64,000 bases of DNA from Methylotuvimicrobium alcaliphilum 20Z (GTDB lineage: Bacteria; Pseudomonadota; Gammaproteobacteria; Methylococcales; Methylomonadaceae), in NCBI RefSeq assembly GCF_000968535.2, contig NC_016112.1, positions 3,782,001 through 3,846,000 of the forward strand, written 5' to 3'. Positions 2,337 through 62,373 of this stretch are shown here, in pieces; the stretch's first letter is position 1; each line of letters opens with the position of its first letter. Position numbers and translations under genes: made by a program. A model generated the notes under the pieces. It was not told where the DNA came from. It worked only from the letters and a program-made list of their open reading frames with translations, and ran no database searches.

Positions 2337-2450
2337 GACCCAGCGATACGGGTTATTTAACCCGTCCCCAACGTTTCGGTTGGCATCAAACATATCGGCT
2401 TGCTTTGGCCTCGGTCGAAATATTTAGAGCAGCCTTACAAACCACGTCCT
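2337..2450. repeat. ~115-bp double-palindrome repeat (degenerate copy)
   Basis: Diverged member of the GGACGGGTTATTTAACCCGTCC ... AACGTTTCGG ... GGACGGGGTTTAAACCCCGTCC family. It lies upstream of the Uma2 gene, as does a copy upstream of the second Uma2 gene, so the two were probably duplicated together. The remainder of 2257-2599 holds the promoter region of the following TA pair. Confidence 0.7.
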
Positions 2451-2569
2451 GCCGAGACCGCCGTTTGCCGGCGTAAAATGCAAGGCCCCAATTTTCGGTT
2501 GAACGGTGACAAGCTTGGTCGATTCGCTACAATTTGTTTAGTTTGAATATCATCAAAAAATGCTATCAT

Positions 2570-5219: not shown

Positions 5220-5247
5220 GCGTAATAATTTAAAGGATGTATAGCCT

Positions 5248-5330
5248 ACCAGGACGGGGTTTGCAACCCCGTTCTAAACGTTTTGACTTTGGCCGAAGTC
5301 AAAACGTTTCGGTTTGGCTCAAACATCAAA
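5248..5330. repeat. Double-palindrome repeat (partial copy)
   Basis: Reverse-orientation partial member: GGACGGGGTTTGCAACCCCG palindrome, then AACGTTTTGACTTTGGCCGAAGTC and AACGTTTCGG. It abuts the 3' end of the next gene, whose last codons lie inside it. Confidence 0.75.
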
Positions 5331-8521: not shown

Positions 8522-8655
8522 CGCTTAGCTCCGCATGCATTCCCACGGGAGCGTCAACACCATTAAGTTACCTGATTAGCAAGTTTCTTCAGCTAAAGCC
8601 CAAAAACCAGCATATCCCTAGCAGGACGGGGTTTGCAACCCCGTCCTGCTTTTCC
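8522..8655. repeat. Repeat junction replacing the glycosyltransferase 5' half
   Basis: Contains a GCATTCCCACGGGAGCG hairpin piece, CCTGATTAGCAAGTTTCTTCAGC (also at 40840, 47910 and 48120) and a GGACGGGGTTTGCAACCCCG palindrome. Three repeat families are joined end to end. Confidence 0.65.
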
Positions 8656-9213
8656 TTATTCCCACAAATGACTCAAACTAAATGAATGCTCGGCAAATGG
8701 ATCGGCGCTGACTTGATCGTCATCCTTTAAACTCTGCTGCAATAGCCAATGACCTTCTTGTAAGCGATACGTTTCGAGCGTATGCAACATCGGATCGATC
8801 AACCAACAATAGAACACACCCAGACCCGCATAAATCGGCATTTTTTCGCTGCGATCGATTTTGGCGGTTGCGGGCGATAAAACCTCGCAGACCCAATCGG
8901 GCACCATTTCAAACCAAGCCGTCTCCGGCAGTTGCGGCATGCGTTGTTTACGCCATCCTGCGAGATCCGATACCAAAACATGACCGCCGATGTGCAATTC
9001 CGGCTCGTCAAGTATCCACCAGCCGGTAGAACCACCATGTCTACCATGAAATAGTGAACCAATTTCAATACCCAACGATGAACAAGTCAAAGCATGCTTC
9101 GGCGCGGGCCTCGGCTGCACTTCCAAACGTCCATTGATGATCTCACCGACCAAATTTTCGGGCAAAGCCAGAATATCGTCATAACTGGGTAATTTAAGCG
9201 CGGTGTTTGCCAT
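8656..9213 (-). CDS. Uma2-family (DUF820) putative endonuclease, copy 2
   Basis: 185 residues from ATG at 9213 (MANTALKLPSYDDI), near-identical to the protein at 1678-2232 including the EVLSPATAKIDRSEKMP core. The copies differ sharply in one patch (SSLGIEIGSLFHGRHGGSTG here), suggesting gene conversion or a different parental allele. The ribosome site and ~200 bp of upstream DNA, including a palindromic repeat, are shared, so this is a segmental duplication. Confidence 0.8.
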   Translation of the reverse strand: MANTALKLPSYDDILALPENLVGEIINGRLEVQPRPAPKHALTCSSLGIEIGSLFHGRHGGSTGWWILDEPELHIGGHVLVSDLAGWRKQRMPQLPETAWFEMVPDWVCEVLSPATAKIDRSEKMPIYAGLGVFYCWLIDPMLHTLETYRLQEGHWLLQQSLKDDDQVSADPFAEHSFSLSHLWE

Positions 9214-9331
9214 GTATGCCTCACTTTTCCAATTGACACAATCAATTGGCGTCTTACTGATCAATCGTTGGGAGTATAGCATAACCGCATAACTCGGCAT
9301 TTGGTTGGGACACTTGCGGGCTTCCCTGTCC

Positions 9332-9455
9332 AGCGGGACGGGTTATGTAACCCGTCCCCAACGTTTCGGTTTGGCACAAACATATCGGCTTGCTTTGACC
9401 ACGGGCGCAACGTTTATGACGGGGTTACAAACCGCGTCTTGCTGAAGCTGGGGAT
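9332..9455. repeat. Double-palindrome repeat upstream of Uma2 copy 2
   Basis: GGGACGGGTTATGTAACCCGTCCC followed by AACGTTTCGGTTTGGC and a degenerate second palindrome. It corresponds to the copy at 2337-2450 beside the first Uma2 gene. Confidence 0.7.
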
Positions 9456-12782: not shown

Positions 12783-13123
12783 GGTTCAGGTCTCGTTTCC
12801 ACGCTCCAGTGAACGTTATTATACATAAACTGTAGGCTAATTTTTTTGAGACGAGCGCATGATACAAACGCCAACCCGCCCGATTATCGACAAAATCATG
12901 CGTAAACACTCTCACTTCGGCATGTCTTCTTGCAAAACCGTCATCGCCGGCATGAAAATGTCAAATGTAAGGCCTGAACCCGATTTTTCCTTAAGGGATT
13001 GGCTTGGCTTATCGATTACGACAAGCTAATGTACACCCATTAACTTTCCTGTAACCGAAAAAAAGTAACCCGACCCCTTTTTTTTGACCCCTTTTTTTTG
13101 ACCCCTTTTTTTCTGTAGGCACA
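12783..13123. repeat. Gene-free stretch with a dispersed repeat and GACCCCTTTTTT tandem
   Basis: Bases 12995-13084 repeat the stretch at ~3625-3732 (TTAAGGGATTGGCTTGGCTT ... TTTCCTGTAACCGA). They are followed by three tandem GACCCCTTTTTTTT units. 12840-12990 shows no recognisable feature. Confidence 0.6.
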
Positions 13124-13160
13124 AAAAACCCCGGTTGGATAGACCTTCCGGGGTTTTGGT
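13124..13160 (-). terminator. Rho-independent terminator of pilA
   Basis: AAAACCCCGG and CCGGGGTTTT arms with a 13-base loop; in the pilA direction the stem is followed by T-rich sequence. It sits about 55 bp after the pilA stop. Confidence 0.8.
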
Positions 13161-13214
13161 TTGTGTCAGGCGTTTAGGTACGCGCAGCGTACCCTACCTG
13201 GCTAGATTTATGTC

Positions 13215-13646
13215 TTAACGACAAGAACCAGGCATCCATTTCAGCGGCGTTCCTGTACATACCCATTTTGTAATGAAACCAACATTGGCCAATGGGTCTG
13301 GTGTCAAGATAACTTGCGGTTGAGCGGCATCTGGAAAGTTTTGACCATCAGCTGTTACAGTACCATCAGCTGCTACGGCAAGTGCAGCAACGTATTCTGT
13401 TGGGTTAAAATCATCGCCACAGCTTGTATAGTCTGCCTGTGTTAAATCGGCCGATGATTGGTTGATTTCTGAAACGCAGGTTCTTGCAGTACTTGCCGCC
13501 AATACAATTTCAGAGACTTTCGCCCTATTTGTGTAATCCTGATAAGCCGGCAGCGCGACCGCCGCCAAGATACCAATGATCGCGACCACGATCATCAGCT
13601 CGATCAAGGTAAAACCTTGTTGTGTTTGTGTTTTAAAATTTTTCAT
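13215..13646 (-). CDS. pilA: Type IV major pilin
   Basis: 143 residues. A short basic leader ([11 protein letters not shown]) is followed by the prepilin peptidase site G^[27 protein letters not shown], with Phe at +1 and Glu at +5. The C-terminus has two Cys bracketing a short loop ([13 protein letters not shown]), the usual pilin D-region. The ATG at 13646 has an AAAGGTGG ribosome site 5 bp upstream, so the longer GTG frame is not used. It lies alone, with its own terminator and a sigma54-type promoter, and is likely controlled by PilS/PilR at 29843-32808. Confidence 0.93.
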
Positions 13647-13704
13647 GGTAACCACCTTTGTGTTGGTAGAAAAGTTCGAATTGACTTGAATTCAGTCAAG
13701 ATAC

Positions 13705-13720
13705 TGCATTCGCCATGCCA
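13705..13720 (-). promoter_or_regulatory. Sigma54 (-24/-12) promoter of pilA
   Basis: In the pilA direction the sequence is TGGCATGGCGAATGCA. This matches the TGGCACG-N4-TTGCW consensus at all but two positions and keeps the GG/GC spacing exactly. It lies ~59 bp before the ATG. RpoN plus PilR activation of pilA is known in other Gammaproteobacteria. Confidence 0.82.
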
Positions 13721-13749
13721 ACCTTGAGAGAAAAAGCAAATTCCCTTTT

Positions 13750-14055
13750 ATTTCAATATATTAGGCGAACACACTTTCGGTGAGCGACGTGATGCAGCCG
13801 CCCGGGCCGGAAATTCTACTCGCTAAGACTTTCTAAAAACGGCGGTTTATGACAATTTTTGTCAGTGCTGTGATTGACTTTCTTAATAACTCCGGTGAGG
13901 ATTGCGCATAAGTTGACAAGTGATACGCTTCTAAAAAGGGGTCAGGTTACTTTTTCTTGATAGCATAAAAAGGGGTCAGGTTACTTTTTCTTGATTACGA
14001 GCCATAGCGCCGTAAACAAAAAAATCAGGGTCACATCAAAAAATCAGGGTCAGGC
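13750..14055. repeat. Gene-free stretch with AAAAAGGGGTCAGGTTACTTTTT repeats
   Basis: Two direct copies of AAAAAGGGGTCAGGTTACTT (13935 and 13969) and an AAAAATCAGGGTCA pair precede the left end of the ISAs1-type element. These motifs also occur at 959 and 15596. Between 13750 and 13930 nothing was recognised beyond possible PilR-binding space. Confidence 0.55.
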
Positions 14056-15268
14056 CCAGGGCAAACGCATTAAAAATACTGTTAAAACATAGAGTTTAGA
14101 GGTATCGTATCGGAATTTTGCGTATGTTACCAACGGACTGCAGTTTAATTAAGCACTTTTCCAACGTGACTGATCCCCGAATTGAACGTAAGAAACTTCA
14201 TCAGTTGATGGATATCATTGTACTCACTGTTTGCGCCTCGTTAAGCGGTGCTGAGGGTTGGGAAGCCATTGAAGAGTTTGGCCATAATAAATTAGATTGG
14301 TTAAGGCAGTTTGTACCGTTAAAGAATGGCATTCCATCGCATGATTGCTTGGCGTATGTCATTTCTCGATTGTCACCGAAAGAATTTCAACGTTGCTTTA
14401 TAGATTGGGTGAACGCCATTCGCGAAGTAATACCCGATGAAGTGATTGCGATAGATGGCAAAACCGCACGCCGTTCGCATGACCGCAAACGCGGCCAAAA
14501 TCCGTTGCACATGGTCAGTGCCTGGGGTTGTGCGAATGGATTAGTGCTCGGCCAAGAAGCGACCGAAGAAAAGTCGAATGAAATTACCGCAATCCCGAAG
14601 CTATTGGCTTTGCTAGAACTCAAAGGTTGTATTGTGACCATTGATGCCATGGGCTGCCAGCGCACGATTGCTGAGCAAATCGTCGATCAAGGCGGTGATT
14701 ACTGTTTGGGCCTGAAAGGCAATCAAGGCGAATTGCATGAAGCCGTCGAGGATTTTTTCAACACGGCCAAGCAAGCGAATTTTAACCACGTCGAATACGC
14801 TTATCACGAAGAAATCGACAACGACCATGGGCGTTTAGAAACCCGCCGTTATTGGATTACCGAGGCGCTTTGTACGCTCCCGAAAACGGAGCTCTGGAAA
14901 GAATTACGCAGCATTGGCTTCGTGGAGCGCGAATGCCACATCGGCGATAAAGTAACAATCGAGCAGCGTTGTTTCATTAACAGCATTAAAGCCGATGCGC
15001 AGCTATTTGCGCGGGCTGTGCGCCATCACTGGGGTATTGAAAACCAATTGCACTGGCGCTTAGACGTGGTCTTTCGAGAAGATGACAACCGAATTCGAAA
15101 AGGTAATGCCGCTGCGATTATGACCACCATCCGGCATATCTGTGTCAATCTGTTCCAGCAAGAGGAATCTAAACTCAGCATGAAAAAGAAAAGACTCAAA
15201 GCCGCCTGGAACGATCGCTACCGCGCTAAATTGCTGTTAGGAAAGTAATTTTAATGCGTTTGCCCTGG
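14056..15268 (+). mobile_element. ISAs1-family insertion sequence
   Basis: 1,213 bp with perfect 20-bp terminal repeats (CCAGGGCAAACGCATTAAAA and its complement), flanked by the 8-bp duplication GGTCAGGC at 14048-14055 and 15269-15276. It carries a single intact transposase gene. The empty target reads GGGTCAGGCCTTACATTTGA, a repeat motif that recurs near 15645 and 47785. Confidence 0.93.
14124..15248 (+). CDS. ISAs1-family DDE transposase
   Basis: 374 residues from ATG at 14124. It opens with FSNVTDPRIERKKLHQLMDIIVL and GAEGWEAIEEFGHNKLDWL, the DDE_Tnp ISAs1 N-domain. Catalytic positions are visible as VIAIDGKTARRS (first Asp), GCIVTIDAMGCQ (second Asp) and HWGIENQLHWRLDVVFREDD (Glu). The frame is full length, so the element is probably active or recently active. 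Confidence 0.93.
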   Translation: MLPTDCSLIKHFSNVTDPRIERKKLHQLMDIIVLTVCASLSGAEGWEAIEEFGHNKLDWLRQFVPLKNGIPSHDCLAYVISRLSPKEFQRCFIDWVNAIREVIPDEVIAIDGKTARRSHDRKRGQNPLHMVSAWGCANGLVLGQEATEEKSNEITAIPKLLALLELKGCIVTIDAMGCQRTIAEQIVDQGGDYCLGLKGNQGELHEAVEDFFNTAKQANFNHVEYAYHEEIDNDHGRLETRRYWITEALCTLPKTELWKELRSIGFVERECHIGDKVTIEQRCFINSIKADAQLFARAVRHHWGIENQLHWRLDVVFREDDNRIRKGNAAAIMTTIRHICVNLFQQEESKLSMKKKRLKAAWNDRYRAKLLLGK

Positions 15269-15450
15269 GGTCAGGCCTTACATTTGACATCGAGGAAATC
15301 GGGCGACGGAGCCTGATCTTTCAGTTACGCATTATTTCGTTTCTAAGTCGCTTAGCCCGGTGGATGGCAAAGCTACGTCCATCAAAAAAGCCTTGGCATA
15401 AGGCATTCAAATCGTCGCATTATCAGTCTATCTATGCGAGAATTGCCGGC

Positions 15451-16584
15451 ATGGCTGAAGTTTATTCCGATGATTACGACACCCCCTGGAAAGACATACT
15501 CGAACATGCATTTCCTGAATTCATGGCCTTTTATTTTCCCAGCGCTCAAACGCAAATCGATTGGGATAAAGGATATGAATTTAAAAACACCCGTAAAAAG
15601 GGGTCAGGTTACTTTTTTTAGAAAAAAAGGATCAGTAATCGGGGTCAGACCTTACATTTGACACTTGGCGTAAAAGACTCGTGCGGGGCGGGTTATTCAA
15701 CCCGCCCCGAATGTTTCGATTTGCCTCAAACATTTCGGTTGGCTTTGGCCATAGGCGAAACGTTTCGGACGGGGTTTAAACCCCGTCCTGCTTAGAAGTT
15801 AGGCAAACGCTACGCCGATGCGCTGGTTCAAGTGACTTTATCGACAGGCATGGAAAGCTGGATTTATATTCATATCGAAATCCAAGGCCAAAAAGACCCG
15901 GCCTTTGCGCAACGCATGCTCACTTATAATTACCGGTTATTTGACCGTTATGCGCGGCCAATCGCCAGCCTTGCGGTTTTAGCCGACAACGATGCGCATT
16001 GGAAACCCGATCATTATGGCTTTAAGGTGCTGGGCTGTAGTCACCAGTTGAATTTTCCGGTTGCCAAATTATTGGAGTATGAAAGCGAACTTGAACAACT
16101 GGAAAAACATCCTAATCCTTTTGCGATTATCACGGCGGCGCACCTGCGCACACGGCAAACCAAGCATGATCCGGAATCACGCTATCGAGCCAAACAAGCC
16201 TTAGTGCGTTTACTGTACCAACAAGGCTGGGAGAAGCAGCGAATATTGGATCTCTTCGCTGTGCTGGATTGGATGATGCGTTTGCCCGATTGGCTCGAAC
16301 AGCAATTATGGCAAGATATTCAACTTATTGAAGGAGAAACTCAAATGCCCTATGTTACCAGCGTCGAACGGCTTGCCACTGAAAAAGGCATGCAAAAAGG
16401 CCGGCAACAAGAATGCCTTGCTCTGGTTACACGCCAATTACGCCGCAAATTTGGCCGCGAACCGGCCTTAGATAACGATTTGACGCAATTAAGCCTTTAT
16501 TCTTTAGCCGAGCTAGAAGAGCTGGCTGACGCCCTGTTGGATTTTAATAACATCGAAGATCTGGAAGCTTGGCTTACCCAATAA
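15451..16584 (+). pseudogene. Rpn/DUF4351-family gene split by repeat DNA
   Basis: The 5' part (15451-15593) reads MAEVYSDDYDTPWKDILEHA, FPEFMAFYFPSAQTQIDWDKGYEFKNT, the Rpn N-terminus. About 200 bp of repeats follow. The frame resumes near 15796 as GKRYADALVQV-like sequence, TLSTGMESWIYIHIEIQGQKDPAFAQRMLTYNYRLFDRY. The C-terminus (LALVTRQLRRKFG ... LEELADALLDFNNIEDLEAWL) is DUF4351. The nuclease domain is interrupted between its acidic residues and the IEIQGQ motif. The downstream part still has an ATG at 15844. Confidence 0.78.
15594..15795. repeat. Repeat block inserted into the Rpn-like gene
   Basis: Contains AAAAAGGGGTCAGGTTACTT, a GGTCAGACCTTACATTTGAC motif and one full double-palindrome repeat (GGCGGGTTATTCAACCCGCC ... 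GGACGGGGTTTAAACCCCGT). It sits between two halves of one protein, so it is a clear insertion. Confidence 0.75.
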
Positions 16585-16876
16585 GCCAGGCATGCAGGCT
16601 GTCCTATCGTTGTGGAGCGAGAAAATACTTTCACAGTCTCTCCCGTTTGGGAAAGACACACCGGAAGCTCCAGCTTCCTGAGACCGACACAACCTCCGCA
16701 CAATCCCAATCAACCTCGACTCGCTCGTTCAATTTTTCTTGATTGTCAGGAAGCTAGAGCTTCCTGAACAGGTTACCCAAGCTGGAGCTTGGGTAACAGC
16801 ATAAGCTTGGCTTACCCAATAAGCCAGGCATGCAGGCTGTCCTATCGTTGTGGAGCGAGAAAATACTTTCACAGTC
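16585..16876. repeat. AGCTGGAGCTTGGG / AAGCTAGAGCTTCC repeat block, left of the IS3 element
   Basis: One full and one partial unit of a ~235-bp repeat built from small hairpins (GGAAGCTCCAGCTTCC, AAGCTGGAGCTTGGGTAAC) and GCCAGGCATGCAGGCTGTCC. The second unit breaks off at TTTCACAGTC, where the IS3-family element begins; its other half follows the element at 18509. Confidence 0.8.
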
Positions 16877-16945
16877 CCCTCTGTGTCAATATACCTGAGA
16901 CACCGCCCCATGCATTAATTAGGGAACATTTTCGGAGAAAATCTC

Positions 16946-17440
16946 ATGACTGACACAACCGTACAAGCTATTCCTCATGCCGCGGCGAACGCGACGGACA
17001 CGCAAGACGCCCGTAGGGCGGCTGAAGTGTCCTCCGCGTTCGCCGCGGAACCTTCCCGCATCACCAGCGAAGTGCTTGAAAAGGCCGCCCGCCGGACGTT
17101 TACCGCCGAATACAAAGAGCGCATCTTGACCCAGGCTGATGCGTGTAGCGAACCGGGCTGCATCGGCAAGTTGCTGCGCACAGAGGGATTATATTCCTCA
17201 CATCTCAGCAAATGGCGCAGCGAACGTGAGCAGGCCATCCGCGCCGGTCTATCCAAGCCGCGTGGCCGCAAACCTTCGGACAAGAATCCGTTAGCCGCTG
17301 AAAATGCTCGTCTGCAAGCCGAAATTCAGCGTTTGCAGGCATGCCTAACACAGGCGGAGGCTATCATCGATGTCCAAAAAAAACTTTCGCAACTGCTGGG
17401 CTTGTGCGAGATTCCAGCCCACACCGGGAGAGCATCATGA
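16946..17440 (+). CDS. IS3-family OrfA (HTH)
   Basis: 164 residues. The central part (RRTFTAEYKERILTQADACSEPGCIGKLLRTEGLYSSHLSKWR) is the transposase_8 helix-turn-helix that binds the IS ends. A leucine-zipper-like helix follows (NARLQAEIQRLQACLTQAEAIID). An 8-A run at ~17376-17383 near the 3' end could support a -1 shift into orfB. The stop overlaps the orfB ATG (ATGA). Confidence 0.9.
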   Translation: MTDTTVQAIPHAAANATDTQDARRAAEVSSAFAAEPSRITSEVLEKAARRTFTAEYKERILTQADACSEPGCIGKLLRTEGLYSSHLSKWRSEREQAIRAGLSKPRGRKPSDKNPLAAENARLQAEIQRLQACLTQAEAIIDVQKKLSQLLGLCEIPAHTGRAS

Positions 17441-18450
17441 AGGCCACGCTTGAACTCAGCCGTGAGGTTGGCGTTAAGGCCGCCTGCGAGGCGCTCAACT
17501 TCAACCGTGCCTCGTTTTATCGCGCACAACAAGATCGCTCTTCGTGGCCGGTCGAACGTCCGCGCCCGCCGCTGGCACTGAGTACGGACGAAGAGCTACA
17601 CGTCCTGGCGCATCTGCACAGCGAGCGTTTCATGGATTGCTCGCCTTATCAGGTCTATGCGGCGCTGCTCGACGAGGGCGTTTACCTGTGCTCCATCAGC
17701 ACCCTCTATCGCATCCTGGTGCGCCACCAGGAAGTGCGCGAGCGCCGCAACCAGCTTCGTCGTCCCAACTACACCAAGCCCGAGTTACTCGCCACTGCGC
17801 CCAACCAAGTATGGTCATGGGATATCACCAAACTCAAAGGCCCGGCCAAATGGACGTATTTCTACCTCTACGTCATTATCGACATTTTCAGCCGCTGCGT
17901 GGTCGGCTGGATGGTAGCGCACCGCGAATCCACCGAGCTGGCTAAGCGACTGATTGGCGAAAGCTGTACTCGGCAAACTATCCGTGAAGGCCAATTGACT
18001 ATTCACGCCGACCGCGGCAGCAGTATGACCTCCAAAGGCGTCGAGCAACTGCTGGCTGACCTGGGCGTGACCAAAACCCATTCACGGCCCCATGTCTCCA
18101 ACGACAACCCGTATTCCGAGGCGCAGTTCAAGACCTTGAAATACCGACCGGGCTTTCCGGCTCAATTCGGCGCTATCGAAGATGCCAGAAGCTTTTGCGG
18201 AACGTTCTTCGACTGGTACAACCATGACCACTATCACTCCGGCATTGCACTGTTAACCCCGGCCAGCGTTCACAGCGGCCAAGCCGTCGAGATAGTTACG
18301 CAGCGCACGCAAGTCCTGCATGCCGCATTCGAGCGCAATCCGGAACGCTTCAAAAACCGCCAACCCCATGCCCAAGCCGTACCTGAAGCCGCTTGGATTA
18401 ACCCGCCCCCTTCACGGACGGCAAATGAGGCTCTCGACCAGGAAAACTAA
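17437..18450 (+). CDS. IS3-family OrfB DDE transposase
   Basis: 337 residues from the ATG overlapping the orfA stop. An HTH_21 region (YQVYAALLDEGVYLCSISTLYRIL) precedes the rve integrase core: WSWDITKLKGP (first Asp), LTIHADRGSSMTS (second Asp) and NDNPYSEAQFKTLKYRP (Glu). All catalytic residues are present. It may also be made as an OrfAB fusion by -1 frameshifting, because the orfB frame is open back to 17341. Confidence 0.92.
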   Translation: MKATLELSREVGVKAACEALNFNRASFYRAQQDRSSWPVERPRPPLALSTDEELHVLAHLHSERFMDCSPYQVYAALLDEGVYLCSISTLYRILVRHQEVRERRNQLRRPNYTKPELLATAPNQVWSWDITKLKGPAKWTYFYLYVIIDIFSRCVVGWMVAHRESTELAKRLIGESCTRQTIREGQLTIHADRGSSMTSKGVEQLLADLGVTKTHSRPHVSNDNPYSEAQFKTLKYRPGFPAQFGAIEDARSFCGTFFDWYNHDHYHSGIALLTPASVHSGQAVEIVTQRTQVLHAAFERNPERFKNRQPHAQAVPEAAWINPPPSRTANEALDQEN

Positions 18451-18508
18451 ACTCACAATCTACACTAATTTTTTATTATGGGTGTCTCAAAATCATTGAC
18501 ATATACCG

Positions 18509-18900
18509 GTCTCTCCAGTTTGGGAAAGACGCACCGGAAGCTCCAGCTTCCTGAGACCGACACAACCTCCGCACAATCCCAATCAACCTCGACTCGCTCG
18601 CTCGTTCAATTTTTCTTGATTGTCGGGAAGCTAGAGCTTCCTGAACAGGTTACCCAAGCTGGAGCTTGGGTAACAGCATAAGCTTGGCTTACCCAATAAG
18701 CCAGGCATGCAGGCTGTCCTGTCGTTGTGGAGCGAGAAAATACTTTCACAGTCTCTCCAGTTTGGGAAAGACACACCGGAAGCTCCAGCTTCCTGAGACC
18801 GACACAACCTCCGCACAATCCCAATCAACCTCGACTCGCTCGCTCGTTCAATTTTTCTTGATTGTCGGGAAGCTAGAGCTTCCTGAACAGGTTACCCAAG
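18509..18900. repeat. AAGCTAGAGCTTCC repeat block, right of the IS3 element
   Basis: Two ~237-bp units (18514- and 18751-) of the same repeat as at 16585, nearly identical to each other. The first is the remainder of the unit broken by the IS. Confidence 0.8.
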
Positions 18901-19930
18901 CTGGAGCTTGGGTAACAGCATATTGTAGTTTTTGCGACTAAGACTGGCCCCTGCTCGGACACTTCTGCGGGACGGGTTATTTAACCCGTCCCCAACGTTT
19001 CGGTTTGCCCTAAACATTTCGGCTGACTTCGGCCAAAGTCAAAACGTTTAGAACGGGGTTGCAAACCCCGTCCTGCTAGGCTGTCCTAACGCTAGACGAA
19101 CCGCGTAGGGTACGCTGTGCGTACCATGGTAACCCCGCGATATTCATGTGCCACCCGAACCGCCAGGGCACGGCTTTGGTACGCGCAGCGTACCCTACAA
19201 TTTATGTATAACGATGAGAGCTGGAGCTTGGGTAACAGTATATTGTAGTTTTTGCGACTAAGACTGGCCCCTGCTCGGACACTTCTGCGGGACGGGTTAT
19301 TTAACCCGTCCCCAACGTTTCGGTTTGCCCTAAACATTTCGGCTGACTTCGGCCAAAGTCAAAACGTTTAGAACGGGGTTGCAAACCCCGTCCTGCTAGG
19401 CTGTCCTAACGCTAGACGAACCGCGTAGGGTACGCTGTGCGTACCATGGTAACCCCGCGATATTCATGTGCCACCCGAACCGCCAGGACTCGGCTTTGGT
19501 AAGCGCAGCGTACCCTACAATTTATGTATAACGATGAGAGCTGGAGCTTGGGTAACAGCATATTGTAGTTTTTGCGACTAAGACTGGCCCCTGCTCGGAC
19601 ACTTCTGCGGGACGGGTTATTTAACCCGTCCCCAACGTTTCGGTTTGCCCTAAACATTTCGGCTGACTTCGGCCAAAGTCAAAACGTTTAGAACGGGGTT
19701 GCAAACCCCGTCCTGCTAGGCTGTCCTAACGCTAGACGAACCGCGTAGGGTACGCTGTGCGTACCATGGTAACCCCGCGATATTCATGTGCCACCCGAAC
19801 CGCCAGGGCACGGCTTTGGTACGCGCAGCGTACCCTACAATTTATGTATAACGATGAGAGCTGGAGCTTGGGTAACAGCATATTGTAGTTTTTGCGACTA
19901 AGACTGGCCCCTGCTCGGACACTTGGCTTC
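18901..19930. repeat. Tandem array of a 320-bp composite unit
   Basis: Units start at 18901, 19221, 19541 and 19861 (the last partial), each beginning CTGGAGCTTGGGTAACAG, and are almost identical. Each unit contains one double-palindrome repeat (GGGACGGGTTATTTAACCCG ... GAACGGGGTTGCAAACCCCG) and one GTAGGGTACGCTGTGCGTAC ... GTACGCGCAGCGTACCCTAC hairpin. Two identical 81-codon frames at 19092 and 19412 are products of the repeat, not genes. The array joins three otherwise dispersed repeat families in one unit. Confidence 0.92.
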
Positions 19931-19985
19931 GGTAAGCTGAAGCATCTTGCTAATCAGGTTTTGAGTTGCGGAGTTAAATCTCCCA

Positions 19986-20162
19986 TTAGTGAGTGTGCGA
20001 TCTGATAGCCGTGAAACCCTCGAGCATAAACGGCAATTCAGTATCTATCCTTTCTGTATGGTTGAGCTCCATGAGTTCAGGAATAATGATTTAAGGCGCT
20101 CTATTAAAGCATCCATTGTTGCCGCTTCAATTGCCAAACCTTCCACGTCCTCACTCGTAGCC
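19986..20162 (-). pseudogene. DUF1902-family fragment
   Basis: Read in reverse: VATSEDVEGLAIEAATMDAL, IERLKSL, then after a one-base slip IPELMELNHTERIDTELPFM, LEGFTAIRSHTH and a stop at 19986. This matches small DUF1902 (HicB-like) proteins. The N-terminal strand is missing: the fragment ends at the MITE beginning at 20165. It is another decayed TA-like component. Confidence 0.65.
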
Positions 20163-20164
20163 AC

Positions 20165-20298
20165 CACTGCCATTAAGTTAAGCCGTTCGTGGTGAGCCTG
20201 TCGAACCATGGACGGCTTAACTTATCGACCCAGGATTTTTCCATTCACCCTTCGACAGGCTCAGGACGAACGGAAAAATCCTTAACTTAATGGCAGTG
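20165..20298. mobile_element. 134-bp MITE, family 1 (no clear TSD)
   Basis: Same sequence and length as the others. The 11 bp on each side (CTCGTAGCCAC and AGCGTTAGGTG) do not match, so flanking DNA was probably rearranged after insertion; the DUF1902 gene upstream half is also missing here. A half-copy of the TA-flanked repeat follows at 20311-20371. Confidence 0.85.
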
Positions 20299-20584
20299 AG
20301 CGTTAGGTGAGGGATCGAACACCCGGCACCGCCATACGCTAATACCGAAATTTTAAGTGCGAAAGGTATATAAGGCTATGTTTGCGTTCCGTCAAAGATT
20401 GAGGCGCGGAGGGGGGGGGTTATGCATACTTTGGGTATGGCCGAAACGCCAAGAACAGGCCTTATAAAGCCCGTTCTTGGAATTATTAGCGAGCGCTACG
20501 GGCGAACGCCCGCTAAGGAATCGGAAAGGTTTGCGCCTTTGTAGCAATCCGGCGCATAAGAAATTCTCGGTTTCGGCTATTGGT

Positions 20585-20785
20585 TTATTTGCCGTATTTT
20601 CTACGGAATTTGTCGACTCTTCCTGCGGTGTCGACTACCCGTTGTTTACCGGTATAAAAAGGGTGGCATGCGGAGCATACCTCAACTTGAAGATCCTTAC
20701 CCAATACGGACCCGGTTTCGAAGGTATTGCCGCAACCACATGTGACTGTGATTTGTTTGTATTCTGGATGAATGTCTGGTTTCAT
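20585..20785 (-). CDS. rpmE: 50S ribosomal protein L31
   Basis: 66 residues starting [20 protein letters not shown]. It keeps the zinc-binding cysteines C16, C18, C37 and C40 (CGC and [11 protein letters not shown]), so this is the C+ form. It ends [15 protein letters not shown]. The ATG at 20785 gives family length; an in-frame upstream ATG at 20797 adds only four residues. Two GC-rich hairpins downstream (20446-20478 and 20498-20514) may end transcription although no T-run follows. Confidence 0.93.
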
Positions 20786-20916
20786 GTTTGCTTCCAAATT
20801 ACCCGTTAATGGGCCACGTACTTATTAATGAACTGCGTATGATACTGTTTATATAAGTGAATCGCAATATCAATTTTTGATCGATCCCTTATGGCATTTG
20901 CTTCTTTCTGCACGCA

Positions 20917-21141
20917 GGGCGGGTTATTTAACCCGCCCGGAACGTTTTTGATTTGGGCTAATCATTTTGGTTTGCTTTGGCCACAGGCAAAACGTTTAGG
21001 ACGGGGTTTAAACCCCGTCCTGCCAAGGAAACGCTCTCCACGCTGGGCGGGTTATATAACCCGCCCGGAACGTGTTTTGATTTGCTTTGGCCACAGTCGA
21101 AACGCTTAGGACGGGGTTTAAACCCCGTCCTGCCAAGGGAT
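20917..21141. repeat. Two tandem double-palindrome repeats
   Basis: Two copies (20917-21025 and 21045-21141) of the GGGCGGGTTATTTAACCCGCCC ... GGACGGGGTTTAAACCCCGTCC unit in direct order. They fill the gap between rpmE and the AmpG-like gene. Confidence 0.85.
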
Positions 21142-21160
21142 TTATTTTAATAAATCTCCC

Positions 21161-22528
21161 CTAGCCCCTCTTTTTCAAAGAGGGGGACTGAATATTTACT
21201 CGCGCGTAGCGCCGCATCAACACCAGCACCAATACGATTGCCGGCAATCCGACCGATGCGGAATAGATGAAAAATAATTCGTAACCGTAATGCTCGACCA
21301 CTATTCCCGAGAAGCCGCCTAAAAGTTTCGCCGGCAAGGTCATCAGCGAACTGAATAAGGCGTACTGGGTCGCGGTATAGGCCGTACTGGTCATACTCGA
21401 TAAGTAGGCTATGAACACCGAGGTCGCAATACCTCCGCTGAGATTATCGGCACTGACGGCGCCGGCGAGCAAAGCTAAGCTGGGCTCCGAGACGGCGAGC
21501 AGCACGAACAGTAAATTGGTCGCTGCGGCCATCACCGCGCCGAGCAACAAAGGCTTCATGATGCCGTAGCGGGCCACCAATACGCCGCCGATCGAGGCCC
21601 CGGCGATAGTCATGAAAAACCCGAAAATTTTGCTGATGTCGGCAATTTCTTTTTTACTGAAGCCGATATCCAAATAAAACGGGTTCGCCATCACGCCCAT
21701 CGTGATGTCGCTCATTTTATAAGTCGCGATCAGCACCAGTATCATCAAGCCGAATTTGCCGTTTCTTGTAAAAAACTCGACGAACGGGCTTAGCACCGCA
21801 TCGGAAAACCAGGCGCCCAATCGCGCCAGCCAATTTCGGCGGCCGGCGACTCCGATGGCCGCCTCCACTTGTCGCGCCAATTTCCGCGCTTCTTGATCTT
21901 CGTTAGGGAGCGGTTCGTCAATAATCAGCGTGGCCGCGACACCGACCAGCATGCAGGCTGCCATCATTTGATAGGCAATCGACCAATCGAAATACTCGGC
22001 CAGATAAAACGCGCCGGCTCCGGCCACTAGCAAGGCAATTCGATAGCCAAGCACATACATCGCCGCCATCGCGCCTTGATATTCGACGACGACCGCTTCG
22101 ATTCGATAGGCATCGATAACGATATCTTGGGTTGAGGAACAAAACGCCACCCAAACGGCGAATATCGCGATCCATTGCAATTGCGATTCGACATCGGCGC
22201 TCGCCATGCCGACTAGGCCAGCAGCAATACCCAGTTGAGCCAGTAACATCCAACTGCGCCGCTTGCCGATACACTTGGTCAACCACGGCAGCGGCAGCGT
22301 ATCGACCACCGGCGCCCAAAAGACTTTGATGGAATATGTTACGCCGACCCAGCTGAAAAAGCCGATGACGGATAATTCGACACCGACATCGCGAAGCCAT
22401 GCCGACAGTGTCGAAAAAACCAATAGAAAGGGAAGACCGGCCGAAAAGCCGAGAAAGACCATACCCAGCACGCGAGGCCGGGTATAGACGAGGAAGGCTT
22501 CGCGCCATCCGCTCTTAACAGCCGTCAT
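21161..22528 (-). CDS. AmpG-like MFS transporter
   Basis: 455 residues, ~12-14 membrane segments. The N-terminus RPRVLGMVFLGFSAGLPFLLVFSTLSAWLRD, then FFSWVGVTYSIKVFWAPVVD, RSWMLLAQLGIAAGLVGMA and AFCSSTQDIVIDAYRIE, match the AmpG group, which imports muropeptides (anhydro-GlcNAc-MurNAc peptides) for cell-wall recycling. The ATG at 22528 is chosen over an upstream TTG. Substrate is inferred by family; other AmpG-like carriers exist. Confidence 0.8.
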   Translation of the reverse strand: MTAVKSGWREAFLVYTRPRVLGMVFLGFSAGLPFLLVFSTLSAWLRDVGVELSVIGFFSWVGVTYSIKVFWAPVVDTLPLPWLTKCIGKRRSWMLLAQLGIAAGLVGMASADVESQLQWIAIFAVWVAFCSSTQDIVIDAYRIEAVVVEYQGAMAAMYVLGYRIALLVAGAGAFYLAEYFDWSIAYQMMAACMLVGVAATLIIDEPLPNEDQEARKLARQVEAAIGVAGRRNWLARLGAWFSDAVLSPFVEFFTRNGKFGLMILVLIATYKMSDITMGVMANPFYLDIGFSKKEIADISKIFGFFMTIAGASIGGVLVARYGIMKPLLLGAVMAAATNLLFVLLAVSEPSLALLAGAVSADNLSGGIATSVFIAYLSSMTSTAYTATQYALFSSLMTLPAKLLGGFSGIVVEHYGYELFFIYSASVGLPAIVLVLVLMRRYARVNIQSPSLKKRG

Positions 22529-24386: not shown

Positions 24387-26039
24387 ATGTACCAATACAC
24401 TCAAGACGATCAAACGCTCATTGATGAACGTGTCGCCCAATTCAGAGGCCAAACCGAACGCTTCCTGAAAGGAGAACTCGACGGCGATCAATTCCGCGCG
24501 CTTCGCTTAATGAATGGCTTGTACATTCAAACTCACGCGCCGATGCTGCGCGTGGCCGGCCCTTACGGTCTGCTGTCGTCCAGGCAATTGCGCAAATTGG
24601 CCGAAATCGCCCGTAAATACGACAAGGGTTATTGTCATTTTACGACGCGCCAAAACATTCAATACAATTGGCCCAAACTCGAGGAAGTCCCGGACATTCT
24701 CGCGGAACTGGCCGAGGTCCAAATGCATGCGATACAAACCAGCGGCAACTGCATGCGCAATACGACGACAGACCCCTTGTCCGGCGTGTGTAAGGATGAA
24801 ATCGAAGATCCGCGCCCCTACTGCGAAATCATTCGTCAATGGACCACACTGCACCCCGAGTTCGCGTTTTTGCCTCGCAAGTTCAAGATCGCTGTCAGCG
24901 GCGCCCTGCACGACCGGGCCGCAACGCAATTTCATGATATCGGCCTGCATTTGGTTAAAAACGATGCCGGCGAAATCGGTTTTAAAGTTTTCGTCGGCGG
25001 CGGCCTAGGCCGCACGCCTGTCATAGGACAAGTGATCCGTCCGTTTCTGGAGAAAAAACACCTACTGTCTTACCTGGAAGCGATCGTCCGTATCTATAAT
25101 CTTTTCGGACGCCGCGACAATAAGTACAAAGCCAGAATCAAAATTTTGGTTAAAGAAGAAGGCCTCGAAAAAATCACTGAACTGGTCGAGCAAGAATGGC
25201 AGTTGAACAAAGACAGTCTCGAACTGAGCGACGAGCGTATAGAATCCATTAAAGCCCAGTTCGCACCGCCGGCTTACGAAACCGATGCCGACCTTGACGG
25301 CAGTTTCAATGATCGTCTCCAAGACAATCCGACTTTTGCAACTTGGGTTCAACAGAATACGGCCGATCATCGCGTACCCGGTTATCGTGCGGCCTTTATT
25401 TCTCTGAAAGCGCCCGACGCCCCTCCCGGCGACATTACCGATGCGCAATTGGACTTGGTCGCCGATTTGGCCGACCGCTTCAGTTTCGGCGAAGTCCGCA
25501 GCACTCATAGGCAAAATTTGGTTTTGACCGATGTCAAGCAGACGGATTTGTTCACCTTATGGCAGGCGCTCGACGCCGCCAATCTGGCCACGCCGAATAT
25601 CGGCTCCGCGACCGACATCATCTGCTGCCCGGGCCTCGATTTTTGCTCGCTGGCCAACGCAGGTTCCATCGGCATTACCCGTGAAATCAATCATGCCCTG
25701 GACGATCTCGATTATCTTCACGATCTCGGCGATATCAAGATTAACATCTCAGGCTGCATGAACGGCTGCGCGCATCAAAGCGTCGGCCATATCGGGATTC
25801 TTGGCGTCGATAAAAAAGGCGAAGAATGGTATCAGATCACACTGGGCGGTTCGTCCGAAAACGATGCCGCGATCGGCGAAAGACTGGGGCCTGCGGTTGC
25901 CAAGGATCAAATCACGCGGGCCGTGCAAGACATTCTCGATGTTTACATCAAGCAAAGACAGGAAGGCGAGTCTTTCTTACATACCGTTAAACGCGTCGGC
26001 ATTACGCCCTTTAAAGAGCAAGTTTATGCAAATCATTAA
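24387..26039 (+). CDS. cysI: Siroheme/4Fe-4S sulfite (or nitrite) reductase, CysI-like
   Basis: 550 residues from ATG at 24387 (MYQYTQDDQTLIDERV). Conserved landmarks: PYGLLSSRQLRKLAEIARKYDKGYCHFTTRQNIQYNWPKLEEVP, QTSGNCMRNTTTD, FLPRKFKIAVSG, and the cluster cysteines CCPGLDFC (about 413-420) and CMNGC (458 and 462) that hold the 4Fe-4S cluster bridged to siroheme. It matches the single-subunit type found next to DUF934, as in Pseudomonas cysI. It reduces sulfite to sulfide for cysteine synthesis; nitrite reduction is possible. The frame extends upstream through a repeat but the ATG gives family length. Confidence 0.85.
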   Translation: MYQYTQDDQTLIDERVAQFRGQTERFLKGELDGDQFRALRLMNGLYIQTHAPMLRVAGPYGLLSSRQLRKLAEIARKYDKGYCHFTTRQNIQYNWPKLEEVPDILAELAEVQMHAIQTSGNCMRNTTTDPLSGVCKDEIEDPRPYCEIIRQWTTLHPEFAFLPRKFKIAVSGALHDRAATQFHDIGLHLVKNDAGEIGFKVFVGGGLGRTPVIGQVIRPFLEKKHLLSYLEAIVRIYNLFGRRDNKYKARIKILVKEEGLEKITELVEQEWQLNKDSLELSDERIESIKAQFAPPAYETDADLDGSFNDRLQDNPTFATWVQQNTADHRVPGYRAAFISLKAPDAPPGDITDAQLDLVADLADRFSFGEVRSTHRQNLVLTDVKQTDLFTLWQALDAANLATPNIGSATDIICCPGLDFCSLANAGSIGITREINHALDDLDYLHDLGDIKINISGCMNGCAHQSVGHIGILGVDKKGEEWYQITLGGSSENDAAIGERLGPAVAKDQITRAVQDILDVYIKQRQEGESFLHTVKRVGITPFKEQVYANH

Positions 26040-26481
26040 AGATAAAAAAATCACCGAAGACCATTGGCAATTTGTCGCCGATGATCAAGACATCCCGCAA
26101 ACCGGCGATATTACCGTTTCCGTATCTCGCTGGCTGAACGATAAAGACTCCTTTGCTCGGCGCGAAGGACAAACCGGTCTCAGAATTCGCTCGACCGATG
26201 CGCTTGAAGACATTGCCGGCGATTTAGCCGGAATGCCTTTGGTCGAATTGGACATCGCGATGTTCGGCGACGGGCGTTCGTTCAGTCAAGCTTGGCTGCT
26301 GCGCAACCGCTATCATTACCGCGGCGAAATTCGCGCGGTCGGTAATTACTTGATCGATCAGATATTTTATCTGCACAGAACCGGCGTCGATGCCTTTCAA
26401 TTGGATGAAAGCAGAAAGCCGGAAGACGCGCTGGCCGCATTGAACGATTTCTCGGTGGCTTATCAGCCGTCGGTGAATTAG
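26026..26481 (+). CDS. DUF934-family protein, sulfite reductase partner
   Basis: 151 residues from ATG at 26026, overlapping the reductase gene by 14 bp. It includes ITVSVSRWLNDKDSF, VELDIAMFGDGRSFSQAWLLRNRYHYRGEIRAVGNYLIDQIFYLHRTGVDAF, the DUF934 signature. DUF934 proteins are nearly always linked to CysI-type reductases and are thought to assist the enzyme or its electron supply; the mechanism is not settled. Confidence 0.85.
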   Translation: MQIIKDKKITEDHWQFVADDQDIPQTGDITVSVSRWLNDKDSFARREGQTGLRIRSTDALEDIAGDLAGMPLVELDIAMFGDGRSFSQAWLLRNRYHYRGEIRAVGNYLIDQIFYLHRTGVDAFQLDESRKPEDALAALNDFSVAYQPSVN

Positions 26482-26526
26482 CCGCTTCTCAGCTCTTATC
26501 CCGTAATTATTCCCCCTATCGTTCCC

Positions 26527-27127
26527 ACCCATGCGGGGCGGGTTATTCAACCCGCTCCGAACGTTTCGATTTGCGCCAAACATTTCGGTTTGCTTTGGCC
26601 ACGGGCGAAACGTTTCGGACGGGGTTTAAACCTCGTCCTGCTTAGAACCCATGCGGGGCGGGTTATTCAACCCGCTCCGAACGTTTCGATTTGCGCCAAA
26701 CATTTCGGCTTGCTTTGACCACGGGCGAAACGTTTCGGACGGGGTTTAAACCTCGTCCTGCTTAGAACCCATGCGGGGCGGGTTATTCAACCCGCTCCGA
26801 ACGTTTCGATTTGCGCCAAACATTTCGGTTTGCTTTGGCCACGGGCGAAACGTTTCGGACGGGGTTTAAACCTCGTCCTGCTTAGAACCCATGCGGGGCG
26901 GGTTATTCAACCCGCTCCGAACGTTTCGTTTTGCGCCAAACATTTCGGTTTGCTTTGACCACGGGCGAAACGTTTCGGACGGGGTTTAAACCCCGTCCTG
27001 CTTAGAACCCATGCGGGGCGGGTTATTCAACCCGCTCCGAACGTTTCGATTTGCTCCAAACATTTCGGTTTGCTTTGGCCACGGGCGAAAGGTTTAGGAC
27101 GGGGTTTAAACCCCGTTCTGCTTGGCG
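26527..27127. repeat. Five tandem copies of a 120-bp double-palindrome unit
   Basis: Units start every 120 bp from ~26528 (CCCATGCGGGGCGGGTTATT). Each holds GGCGGGTTATTCAACCCGCT, two AACGTTTCG motifs and GGACGGGGTTTAAACC(T/C)CG. Copies differ by a few bases; the last carries more changes and a perfect GGTTTAAACCCC centre. The array lies between the ends of the convergent DUF934 and sucD genes. Confidence 0.93.
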
Positions 27128-27190
27128 AACCATCCTATCTCTTGTGGGAGCCGCTATATCAGTCGCAGGGTGCGTATCGCGCGCCTTTTT

Positions 27191-28060
27191 CTAGCCGCAG
27201 ACTTTTTTCATGACTTCGCCTATCTCGGTGGGCGAGCTGACCATTTCGACGCCGGCCGCATTCATCGCGGCGATTTTGCTTGCCGCCGTACCTTTGCCGC
27301 CGGTCACGATCGCACCGGCATGACCCATGCGCTTGCCGGGCGGCGCTGTTTGTCCGGCGATATAGCCGACCACAGGCTTTGTGACATGCGCCTTGATGTA
27401 TTCGGCCGCCTCTTCTTCCTCGCTACCGCCGATTTCACCGACCATGACGATGCCGTGCGTTTGCTCATCGGCCTGAAACCGACTAATCACATCGATGAAA
27501 TTCATGCCGTGAATCGGATCGCCGCCGATGCCGACGCAGGTGCTTTGCCCCAAGCCTTCGCGCGTTGTTTGATGCACCGCCTCGTAAGTCAATGTCCCTG
27601 ATCGCGACACGATACCGATTTTGCCGGGCTGATGAATAAAACCCGGCATGATGCCGATTTTGCATTCGCCCGGCGTGATGATGCCGGGACAATTCGGGCC
27701 GATCAAAACCGCATCGGAACCGGCCATCGCCGCCTTGACGCGCAGCATGTGCAATACCGGAATGCCTTCGGTAATACAGACGATCACTTTGATGCCGGCA
27801 TCGAAGGCTTCCAATATCGCATCGGCCGCATAGAACGGCGGTACATAAATCACCGTAGCTTCAGCTTGCGTTCTTTGCACGGCCTGTTCGACCGTATCGA
27901 ACACCGGCAAATCGCAATGAGTCTCGCCGCCGCGCCCGGGCGTTACGCCGCCGACCAACTGCGTGCCGTATTCGAGCGTTTGCAACGAATGAAAAGTACC
28001 TTGTTTACCGGTAAAGCCCTGACAGATGACTTTCGTTGCTTTGTTCACCAAAATGCTCAT
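27191..28060 (-). CDS. sucD: Succinate-CoA ligase alpha subunit
   Basis: 289 residues. N-terminal CoA-binding domain ([42 protein letters not shown]); [32 protein letters not shown] and [15 protein letters not shown] follow; the active-site His lies in [10 protein letters not shown]. It is closer to SucD than to the malate-CoA ligase subunit MtkB because it lacks the extra residues before GPNC and keeps SRSGTLTYE. It starts within the sucC stop (ATGA overlap). With SucC it interconverts succinyl-CoA and succinate with ATP or GTP formation. Confidence 0.92.
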
Positions 28061-47839: not shown

Positions 47840-48420
47840 TATGCTGTTACCCAAGCTCCAGCTTGGGTAACCTGTTCAGGAAACTCTAGCTTCCCGCCAA
47901 TCAAGAAAGATCCTGATTAGCAAGATGCTTCAGCTTGCTGAAGCCAATTGTCCGAGCAGTGGCCGGTCGTAGCCACTTCTGCGGGACGGGTTATTTAACC
48001 CGTCCCCAACGTTTCGGTTTGCCCTAAACATTTCGGCTAACTTTGGCCAAAGTCAAAACGTTTAGGACGGGGTTGCAAACCCCGTCCTGCTAGGGATATG
48101 CTGGTTTTTGGGCTTTAGCTGAAGAAACTTGCTAATCAGGAGAAAGATTGAACGAGCGAGCGAGTCGGGGTTGATTGAGAATGTGCGGAGGTTGTGTCGG
48201 TCTCAGGAAGCTGGAGCTTCCTGTGTGTCTTTCCCAAGCTGGAGCTTGGGAAAGAGCGTGATGTGGGTTGGCCGTTTTTAGCTTGACGCGCATGGCTTAC
48301 GAACACCGTCCTGCTAGGGATATGCTGATCTTTGGGCTTTAGCTGAAGAAACTTGCTAATCAGGACTTGGATTGAAACGTTTGGAACGAAGCACATACCC
48401 CGTCCCGCTCAAGAAGTTTT
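47840..48420. repeat. Mixed repeat block upstream of hicB
   Basis: A reversed AAGCTCCAGCTTGGG unit (47840), CCTGATTAGCAAGATGCTTC, a full double-palindrome repeat (47982-48093), and another reversed unit to 48260, then pieces of both again. It is a rearranged relative of the 320-bp array at 18901. No gene is present between 47705 and 48459. Confidence 0.8.
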
Positions 48421-62041: not shown

Positions 62042-62094
62042 TAATTATTCCCCCGACATTTGAGTCGCTTCAAATAGAGCTGATAACTTCGCGC

Positions 62095-62373
62095 GGAGCG
62101 GGTTATTTAACCCGCTCAAAACGTTTCGATTTGCTTTAGCCTCGCTCAACACATTTATACCCATCGCACTTCAAATTTCGGCATTGACGCATGGAGGCGC
62201 CGGGGTGTTCGGCAAAGGCTTTGACAGCATGGAGCCGGCATAGAGCCTACAGGGATGTATTCACCCAGCCCCTAAATTCCATAGCCCATCGGTCATGGTT
62301 AATAGTCTTACTAATTTAGGGGCTGGGTCCTTTGACGGACACCCCGGCGCCGAAATTTGACCAGCAAAGGGTA
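62095..62373. repeat. Half double-palindrome repeat and a TA-flanked element with nested hairpin
   Basis: 62095-62152 carries AGCGGGTTATTTAACCCGCT and AACGTTTCG only. From ~62157 a TA-flanked element starts TATACCCATCGCACTTC. It contains the 64-bp hairpin at 62264-62327 after TTCA and ends GAAATTTGACCAGCAAAGGG TATA. It is in inverse orientation to the copy at 60077. Confidence 0.8.

Follow-up and report, generated by a model that had tools for sequence, protein, structure and literature searches.

The closest described systems to the repeat studied here are the REPs, the REPINs/BIMEs and the RAYT transposases tied to them. In the part of PMC3686654 that deals with REP structure, a GT(A/G)G tag is treated as defining for REPs, and the part of PMC8266576 that concerns recognition describes tests of RAYTs on REPs of the GTAG type only. 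The account of clustering in PMC3116915 reports ordered tandem REPIN clusters in P. fluorescens, near-identical together with their flanks, the largest holding four REPINs and a REP, and a few REP families lie inside longer palindromes according to the relevant sections of PMC3733652. Our search of the open-licence literature returned nothing on point for the present repeats in methanotrophs, for nested REP/MITE elements, or for RAYT loss and groups.

The window, i.e. the whole 64-kb stretch of DNA that was analysed, corresponds to positions 3782001-3846000 of a 4,668,296-bp Methylotuvimicrobium chromosome; the genome has one further contig, 128 kb long. It contains an array of five 120-bp repeats. 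We interpret the 120-bp unit as a REPIN-type non-autonomous mobile element, linked to a clade of RAYT genes and carried in addition as the passenger of a MITE, and the array as a local duplication of it; the probability that we attach to this reading is about 0.8. From the interpretation given in the initial annotation we retain the hairpins, whereas the transcription block gains no support from the sequence; the dispersal of the unit and its association with a RAYT clade and a MITE lay outside its view.

Anatomy of the array and of its hairpin unit

Tandem Repeats Finder places the array at 26527..27123 on the plus strand, with a period of 120, 5.0 copies and 97% matches. It consists of five head-to-tail REPIN-type double-hairpin units of 120 bp each, identical to one another at 110-117 of 117 positions. 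Thus, both the repeat search and the pairwise comparison of units bear out the five tandem units recorded initially, with an end at 27123 in place of 27127. Each unit reads hairpin A - AACGTTTCG - AACATTTCG - CGAAACGTTT - hairpin B, where hairpin A is of the GGGCGGGTTATTCAACCCGC type, hairpin B is of the GGACGGGGTTTAAACCCCGTCC type and AACATTTCG is degenerate. AACGTTT lies on the inner side of both hairpins and faces inward, AACGTTTCG and CGAAACGTTT facing each other, which agrees with the two AACGTTT-type motifs that had been placed between the palindromes. The two palindromes per unit are indeed two hairpins, but hairpin B is a perfect 22-bp palindrome in unit 4 only; it is CCTCGTCC in units 1-3 and CCCCGTTC in unit 5.

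A covariance model, R1, built from 34 half units (alignment A2), resolves the array into five doublets on the plus strand, each made of a unit A (+) and a unit B (-): 26531..26643 (26531-26569 and 26605-26643), 26651..26763 (26651-26689 and 26725-26763), 26771..26883 (26771-26809 and 26845-26883), 26891..27003 (26891-26929 and 26965-27003) and 27011..27123 (27011-27049 and 27085-27123), the last of which carries the GCGAAAGGT variant. The array lies between two convergent genes identified by domain matches, a DUF934 gene on its left (PF06073, plus strand, ORF end 26481) and sucD on its right (CoA_binding/Ligase_CoA, minus strand, 27191-28060). A search of window positions 26000-28000 against Rfam returned no family at threshold, the best score being 19.3 bits against a gathering value of 50.

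The whole 120-bp unit is quasi-palindromic, with a self-alignment score of 66 as against 26 (sd 7) for shuffles. As single-stranded DNA it folds at -33.0 kcal/mol, compared with -18.0 (sd 2.7) for 200 dinucleotide shuffles, none of which was as good, and the fold (z = -5.5) has an outer hairpin on either side of a middle stem; for a MITE-borne copy of the doublet, z is -6.3. The half unit that recurs across genera is composed of GC, a stem of about 9-12 pairs, a short loop, N and AACGTTT. In 34 units, two-sided changes were observed in 6 of 10 stem pairs, a count reached by 4 of 500 shuffles, while neither the 38 changed cells nor the score was attained by any of the 500. In a set of 26 units, some of them from other families (alignment A3), 9 of 10 pairs covary; none of 500 shuffles reached this count and slid controls gave at most 3 pairs. 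Together, stem covariation and single-strand folding support hairpin formation. The 26 units show no variation in GC or at four of the seven tag positions, and the remaining three positions are conserved in 24 of them. This conservation is partly circular, as is the R1 scan of RAYT loci in the genus, because the rows of A2 and A3 were picked by likeness to the probe (RAYT loci supplied 20 of the 34 in A2).

R1 finds 31 full hairpin units in the window, arranged as 13 inverted doublets and 5 singles; the earlier estimate of about sixteen full or partial units was of the right order. Over 664 kb of chromosome including the window, 61 R1 rows, of which 8 are partial, leave 53 halves, 31 of them in the 64-kb window versus 22 in the other 600 kb sampled, so that the window is unusually rich. 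The window genome holds at least 46 unit matches (40 of 124 first-look candidates were scored), and the repeat also occurs in two relatives known by name, Methylotuvimicrobium buryatense 5G and 'Methylomicrobium sp. wino1'. At E 0.001, units were detected in 70 of the 121 Methylomonadaceae genomes; a class-wide draw, with the window genome and 5G set aside, gave 4 positive genomes out of 367 at E 1e-5.

Copies outside the arrays, all located with R1, include the free doublets at 9331..9444 and 15681..15793, a doublet pair at 20912..21135 composed of a long form (20912-21025) and a short form (21040-21135), and a degenerate doublet at 2341..2456 of which the left hairpin unit alone passes, all on the plus strand. 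Single hairpin units are found at 5247..5286, 8619..8655 and 62091..62129 on the plus strand and at 48372..48410 on the minus strand. At the 5G locus L055, the doublet at 15681..15793 is missing, with 28 bp of other sequence between matching flanks, and the pair at 20912..21135 is represented by one copy between matching flanks. The region 13000-21200 is rich in mobile DNA, with an ISAs1 transposase (14118-15248), an IS3-type transposase (16946-18450) and several doublets. The doublet at 9331..9444 lies directly upstream of the second of two Uma2-family genes (regions 1678-2456 and 8656-9446), which are 7 kb apart and each have a doublet close upstream, set in similar sequence; either a segmental duplication took the REPIN along or the insertions were parallel.

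RAYT genes beside the units

Four half units, taken from the window genome only, were used as a probe against 87 Y1/RAYT transposase loci, a search that is not circular, unlike the results based on A2 and A3. At the loci of one RAYT clade from other Methylomonadaceae genera, a unit was found within 350 bp in 14 of 14 cases, and on both sides in 9, compared with 2 of the 73 remaining RAYT/Y1 loci, a set that includes repeat hits to the same genes. Membership of the clade was assigned at an identity of at least 56% to its first member and extends to some fragments. The units near these genes face them by their AACGTTT side in 26 of 36 cases and face away in 10, several of the latter being partners in a flanking doublet. 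Thus, the gene often occupies the position of the short spacer of the doublet.

In a quick tree of 82 rows, 11 clade genes and the one from outside the family form a single branch with an SH-aLRT of 100; the rows were Y1/RAYT loci including L299 and 18 from the REP_Tyr_transpos search of the genus, from which short, stop-rich and duplicate rows had been dropped, and the clade loci L217, L219 and L230 are absent from them. The first clade member matches NCBIfam REP_Tyr_transpos at 87.2 bits, over the cut-off of 80, and has TnpA_REP (4er8, E 6e-4) as its sole PDB match. HUH and Y motifs and no stop are seen in 9 of the 13 clade members listed; the motifs are NH[LI]H and Y[IL]HxNP and the HuH-Y spacing is 71-72 residues.

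In an independent test over 369 genomes of the class, one, G176 from another family, carries a clade RAYT at E 1e-30. It also has 12 units, the most among the 367 genomes other than the window genome and 5G (E 1e-5; 18 candidates scored per genome), and its RAYT gene is bracketed by two units in which the stem is largely different and fully paired, while GC and AACGTTT are kept; the window-only probe detects these two at E 1e-5 and 0.014. Within the family (121 genomes), at least 5 units are present in 14 of 15 genomes with the clade versus 28 of 106 without it (p = 8e-7), the 15 positives having been hand-picked at an identity of at least 56% with fragments included, and at most 55 candidates having been scored per genome. 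At least 10 units despite no clade gene were counted in 23 of the 106, where incomplete assemblies can hide the gene; copy number therefore does not track the RAYT tightly. Building on the observed anatomy, covariation and dispersal of the unit and on its RAYT neighbours in other genera, we suggest by analogy with TnpA_REP and GTAG REPs that the clade RAYT, an HUH/Y1 enzyme, would recognise the folded single strand and copy the doublet.

The RAYT clade was sought in six Methylotuvimicrobium genomes, four of them in one or two contigs, and was not found. Each of these genomes has between 3 and 17 REP_Tyr_transpos matches, and the cut-off is exceeded in five of the six; the RAYTs of the genus are 40-42% identical to the clade in their best full-length matches and are placed elsewhere in the tree. 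No unit-flanked RAYT was seen among the genus loci fetched, the sole unit within 350 bp of a gene being a weak G002 unit, 324-327 bp away. At the five RAYT-like loci first detected in the window genome with Pfam Y1_Tnp, the repeats are different ones and no unit of the present family reached significance; these loci seemed to argue against a REP until the unit had been followed into other genera. As the clade RAYT was not found in the genus, the REPIN looks orphaned there: a genus without it would be left with free copies, and those in the window's genus are probably leftovers. Persistence and decay of repeats after RAYT loss are expected in the discussion of this point in PMC3686654.

Other Y1 systems were also noted in the window genome. 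At L049 and L050 (4591384 and 4380648), Y1/RAYT-like genes are flanked by 30-37-bp inverted repeats that are 81-83% complementary and contain GGGGTCAG, which is also present to the left of the doublet at window position 15681; the GGGGWSAS motif of TIR-associated Y1 transposases, as given in part of PMC3733652, fits GGGGTCAG. At L251 (529841-533263), a RAYT is surrounded by several GTAGGATGGGTAGCAGCG... hairpins, which on visual inspection look like an ordinary system of GTAG REPs next to that of the AACGTT type.

Origin and gene context of the array

Among the six genomes of the genus, fivefold amplification at DUF934/sucD is seen in the window genome only. In G003 and G005 the gap has a single unit right after DUF934, without hairpin B; in G002 it has one decayed unit, closer to sucD; in G001, where the contig ends, it has at least one unit; and in M. 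buryatense 5G it has no unit and an insertion of about 2 kb. The GCGAAAGGT variant is common to array unit 5 and to the G003 and G005 units at the same locus, an indication that this lineage multiplied an old unit in situ. One older DUF934-sucD unit would thereby have become fivefold through local tandem duplication, possibly by unequal recombination or slippage. A second array at 18899..19924 (plus strand, Tandem Repeats Finder), with 3.2 copies of a 320-bp unit and an R1 doublet in each of three copies (18965-19078, 19285-19398 and 19605-19718, plus strand), and the doublet pair at 20912-21135 point the same way, to local amplification. A right-hand MITE terminus follows this second array and ends at about 19958. 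The 5G insertion (L160/L165, 2508717-2511026) has two ORFs of 264 and 190 aa that are transposase-like by eye, and the DUF934-sucD gap seems to be a recurrent target of small mobile DNA.

A function in transcription was considered, namely that the array terminates transcription from both directions or stabilises mRNA 3' ends, and was kept and amplified for blocking read-through between DUF934 and sucD. The strength of the hairpins, their position between convergent genes and the presence of a unit at DUF934/sucD in 5 of 6 genomes of the genus speak for it. An intrinsic terminator, i.e. a G+C-rich stem with a T-run, was sought on both strands of 26527-27123 and none was found. To place the repeat relative to genes, we used a crude codon-usage script as gene caller, which missed DUF934, so that the counts that follow are approximate, and sites at sequence ends were omitted (1 of 25 in 664 kb, 15 of 77 in 65 loci). 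The 24 sites in 664 kb, none of them inside called genes, comprise 8 convergent, 15 codirectional and 1 divergent, where the intergenic bases are 24% convergent, 54% codirectional and 22% divergent (p = 0.34 for convergent placement, p = 0.044 for divergent depletion). The 62 sites in 65 loci, mostly from 5G, comprise 22 convergent, 35 codirectional and 5 divergent; with the intergenic composition of the 664 kb as reference, the corresponding p-values are 0.054 and 0.0055, and with that of the 65 loci they are 0.49 and 0.046. Mapped in this way over the 664 kb and the 65 loci, placement relative to genes shows a weak divergent depletion and no significant convergent enrichment.

The two-way block of transcription proposed initially thus finds no support in the sequence, with no terminator-like site in the array and convergent placement not significantly enriched. 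The hairpins of the array lack a T-run, M. buryatense 5G does without a unit at this site, and in the relatives the units at this locus show partial decay, hairpin B being missing from two. The weak depletion from divergent regions could still accord with a terminator or stabiliser, which we regard as unlikely; overall, placement fits better with tolerance of insertions away from promoters than with a special role at convergent genes. Depletion from divergent regions is the published direction for REPs, which are mostly in unidirectional or convergent intergenic regions in the part of PMC3733652 on gene context. Secondarily, the array may be a putative 3'-end structure, an mRNA 3' shield or a protein site.

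Regular 120-bp spacing and the conserved inner AACGTTT would also suit a putative protein-binding platform, for example for gyrase, for IHF or, presumably, for a LacI-type regulator as candidate reader of GAAACGTTTC. REPs do bind IHF and gyrase, as stated in the pertinent part of PMC6006769; yet RAYT recognition explains the conserved inner motif equally, and the sequence names no binding protein, which makes such a platform distinctly improbable.

The MITE carrier and relation to known systems

A 229-bp MITE at 47912..48140 (plus strand; R1 and TIRs), with the TIR CCTGATTAGCAAG and the 8-bp duplication AGAAAGAT, carries a doublet at 47979-48092. Longer flanks that end in CCTGATTAGCAAG TIRs are common to many copies from the window genome and 5G, and the TIR motif lies within 100 bp at 51 of 77 sites in 65 pattern-fetched loci, mostly from 5G. 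With up to 2 mismatches, TIRs number 99 + 100 in the window genome and 82 + 85 in 5G, compared with 0 for the reversed control. Perfect 8-bp duplications were observed in 12 of the 12 copies inspected, from 50 TIR pairs, and one 5G MITE copy has a clean empty site in the window genome. An element of 2,071 bp in the same genome has these TIRs, together with the duplicated AAAGATTA, and encodes an IS1182-family transposase (423 bits, over a cut-off of 270). The spread of the MITE rests on these TIRs, 8-bp duplications, empty site and IS1182-transposase element; it is the carrier, not the array unit, that shares TIRs and target duplication with that element. Many copies of the doublet have spread as passengers of this IS1182-type MITE. 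Forms of 351 and 264 bp (L144, L156 and L073) have the same TIRs but contain no more than a remnant of the doublet (~TAGCAGGACGGGGTT) alongside other palindromes; the MITE exchanges its cargo.

Empty-site comparisons gave 2 absent versus 28 shared for free copies and 3 absent versus 9 shared for MITE-borne ones, counts that lean toward "shared" and are not independent, because the relatives' loci were often picked by their units and pairs were counted both ways. No movement of the free doublet was observed: two free copies differ between species, and the one examined is not a clean insertion. A free doublet in the window genome (L012, 1460-1652; genome position 914773) is flanked by the 9-bp direct repeat GGCTTTGCC, which is either due to chance or an insertion with target duplication, the latter not being expected of a RAYT. 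That the double hairpin is itself a DDE-transposase MITE, with the ends TTCTGCGGG / CCTGCTA as terminal repeats and a coincidental RAYT link, would account for this 9-bp repeat and is in keeping with the spread of the doublet inside the IS1182-type MITE, but is very improbable given the RAYT neighbourhood seen in another family as well as at all 14 clade loci, the covarying hairpins beside a fixed inner tag, MITE termini that differ in sequence and lie outside the doublet, and no common duplication at free copies whose flanks were read by eye.

The REPIN-type reading draws on two inverted imperfect palindromes with a spacer whose ends pair, on high copy number with intergenic dispersal, and on units flanking a RAYT gene, the last in other genera and G176 only. 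A GT(A/G)G tag was sought on both strands of 43 aligned units and is absent in 41; the two that hold it, from L297, have it at or in the stem, where it does not replace the AACGTT tag. Membership of the GTAG REP superfamily was rejected for want of GT(A/G)G 5' of the palindrome, and so was that of the CGTC superfamily: the units of A2 and A3 do not conform to a CGTC end, two A-T pairs, a CCA tail and no transposase, and a RAYT is linked. The element acts like a REPIN and has its structural features, yet falls outside both the GT(A/G)G and the CGTC definitions. We see about an even chance that it represents a third tag class of RAYT-mobilised gammaproteobacterial REPs (GC-hairpin-N-AACGTT(T), with its own non-GTAG RAYT clade), and that in Methylotuvimicrobium the RAYT was lost and the repeat was captured by an IS1182 MITE and reamplified. 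With a RAYT clade whose tag is clearly different and nearly invariant and whose stems covary, the question of the guide tag becomes directly testable, and a genus without this RAYT but with many copies, many of them in a DDE-type MITE, offers a natural example of a repeat outliving its enzyme. The window's genus is in industrial use, and such repeats are recombination substrates in it.

Amongst known systems, IS1182-family MITEs have the same CCTGATTAGCAAG TIR and 8-bp duplications, the MITE described here differing by its REPIN cargo. With REPINs/BIMEs, as set out in the structural part of Bertels and Rainey 2011 (PMC3116915), the element has in common the inverted palindrome doublet, the clover or long-hairpin fold, the high copy number and the RAYT tie; it differs from the REPINs/BIMEs described there by an inner AACGTTT and an outer GC with no GT(A/G)G, by a RAYT that was not found in the genus, and by being a MITE passenger. 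The GTAG and CGTC REP superfamilies, as characterised in the relevant sections of Di Nocera 2013 (PMC3733652), show the same stem-loop, unpaired end motif, dimers and gene-context preference. From GTAG REPs in that survey the element is set apart by its tag, AACGTT(T) instead of GTAG, and from the CGTC families there by having no two A-T pairs at the stem base, no CCA tail and a linked RAYT. On motif comparison alone, the clade shares its NHxH and YIHxNP motifs with TnpA_REP subclass 2.6 / RAYT group 5, as delimited in the part of PMC6006769 on this subclass, which likewise has flanking genome-recurrent hairpins without GT(A/G)G. According to the same part of PMC6006769, subclass 2.6 is found mainly in Bacteroidetes, with weaker structures and a HuH-Y spacing of about 82, whereas the genes and units described here have a spacing of 71-72 and strong hairpins.
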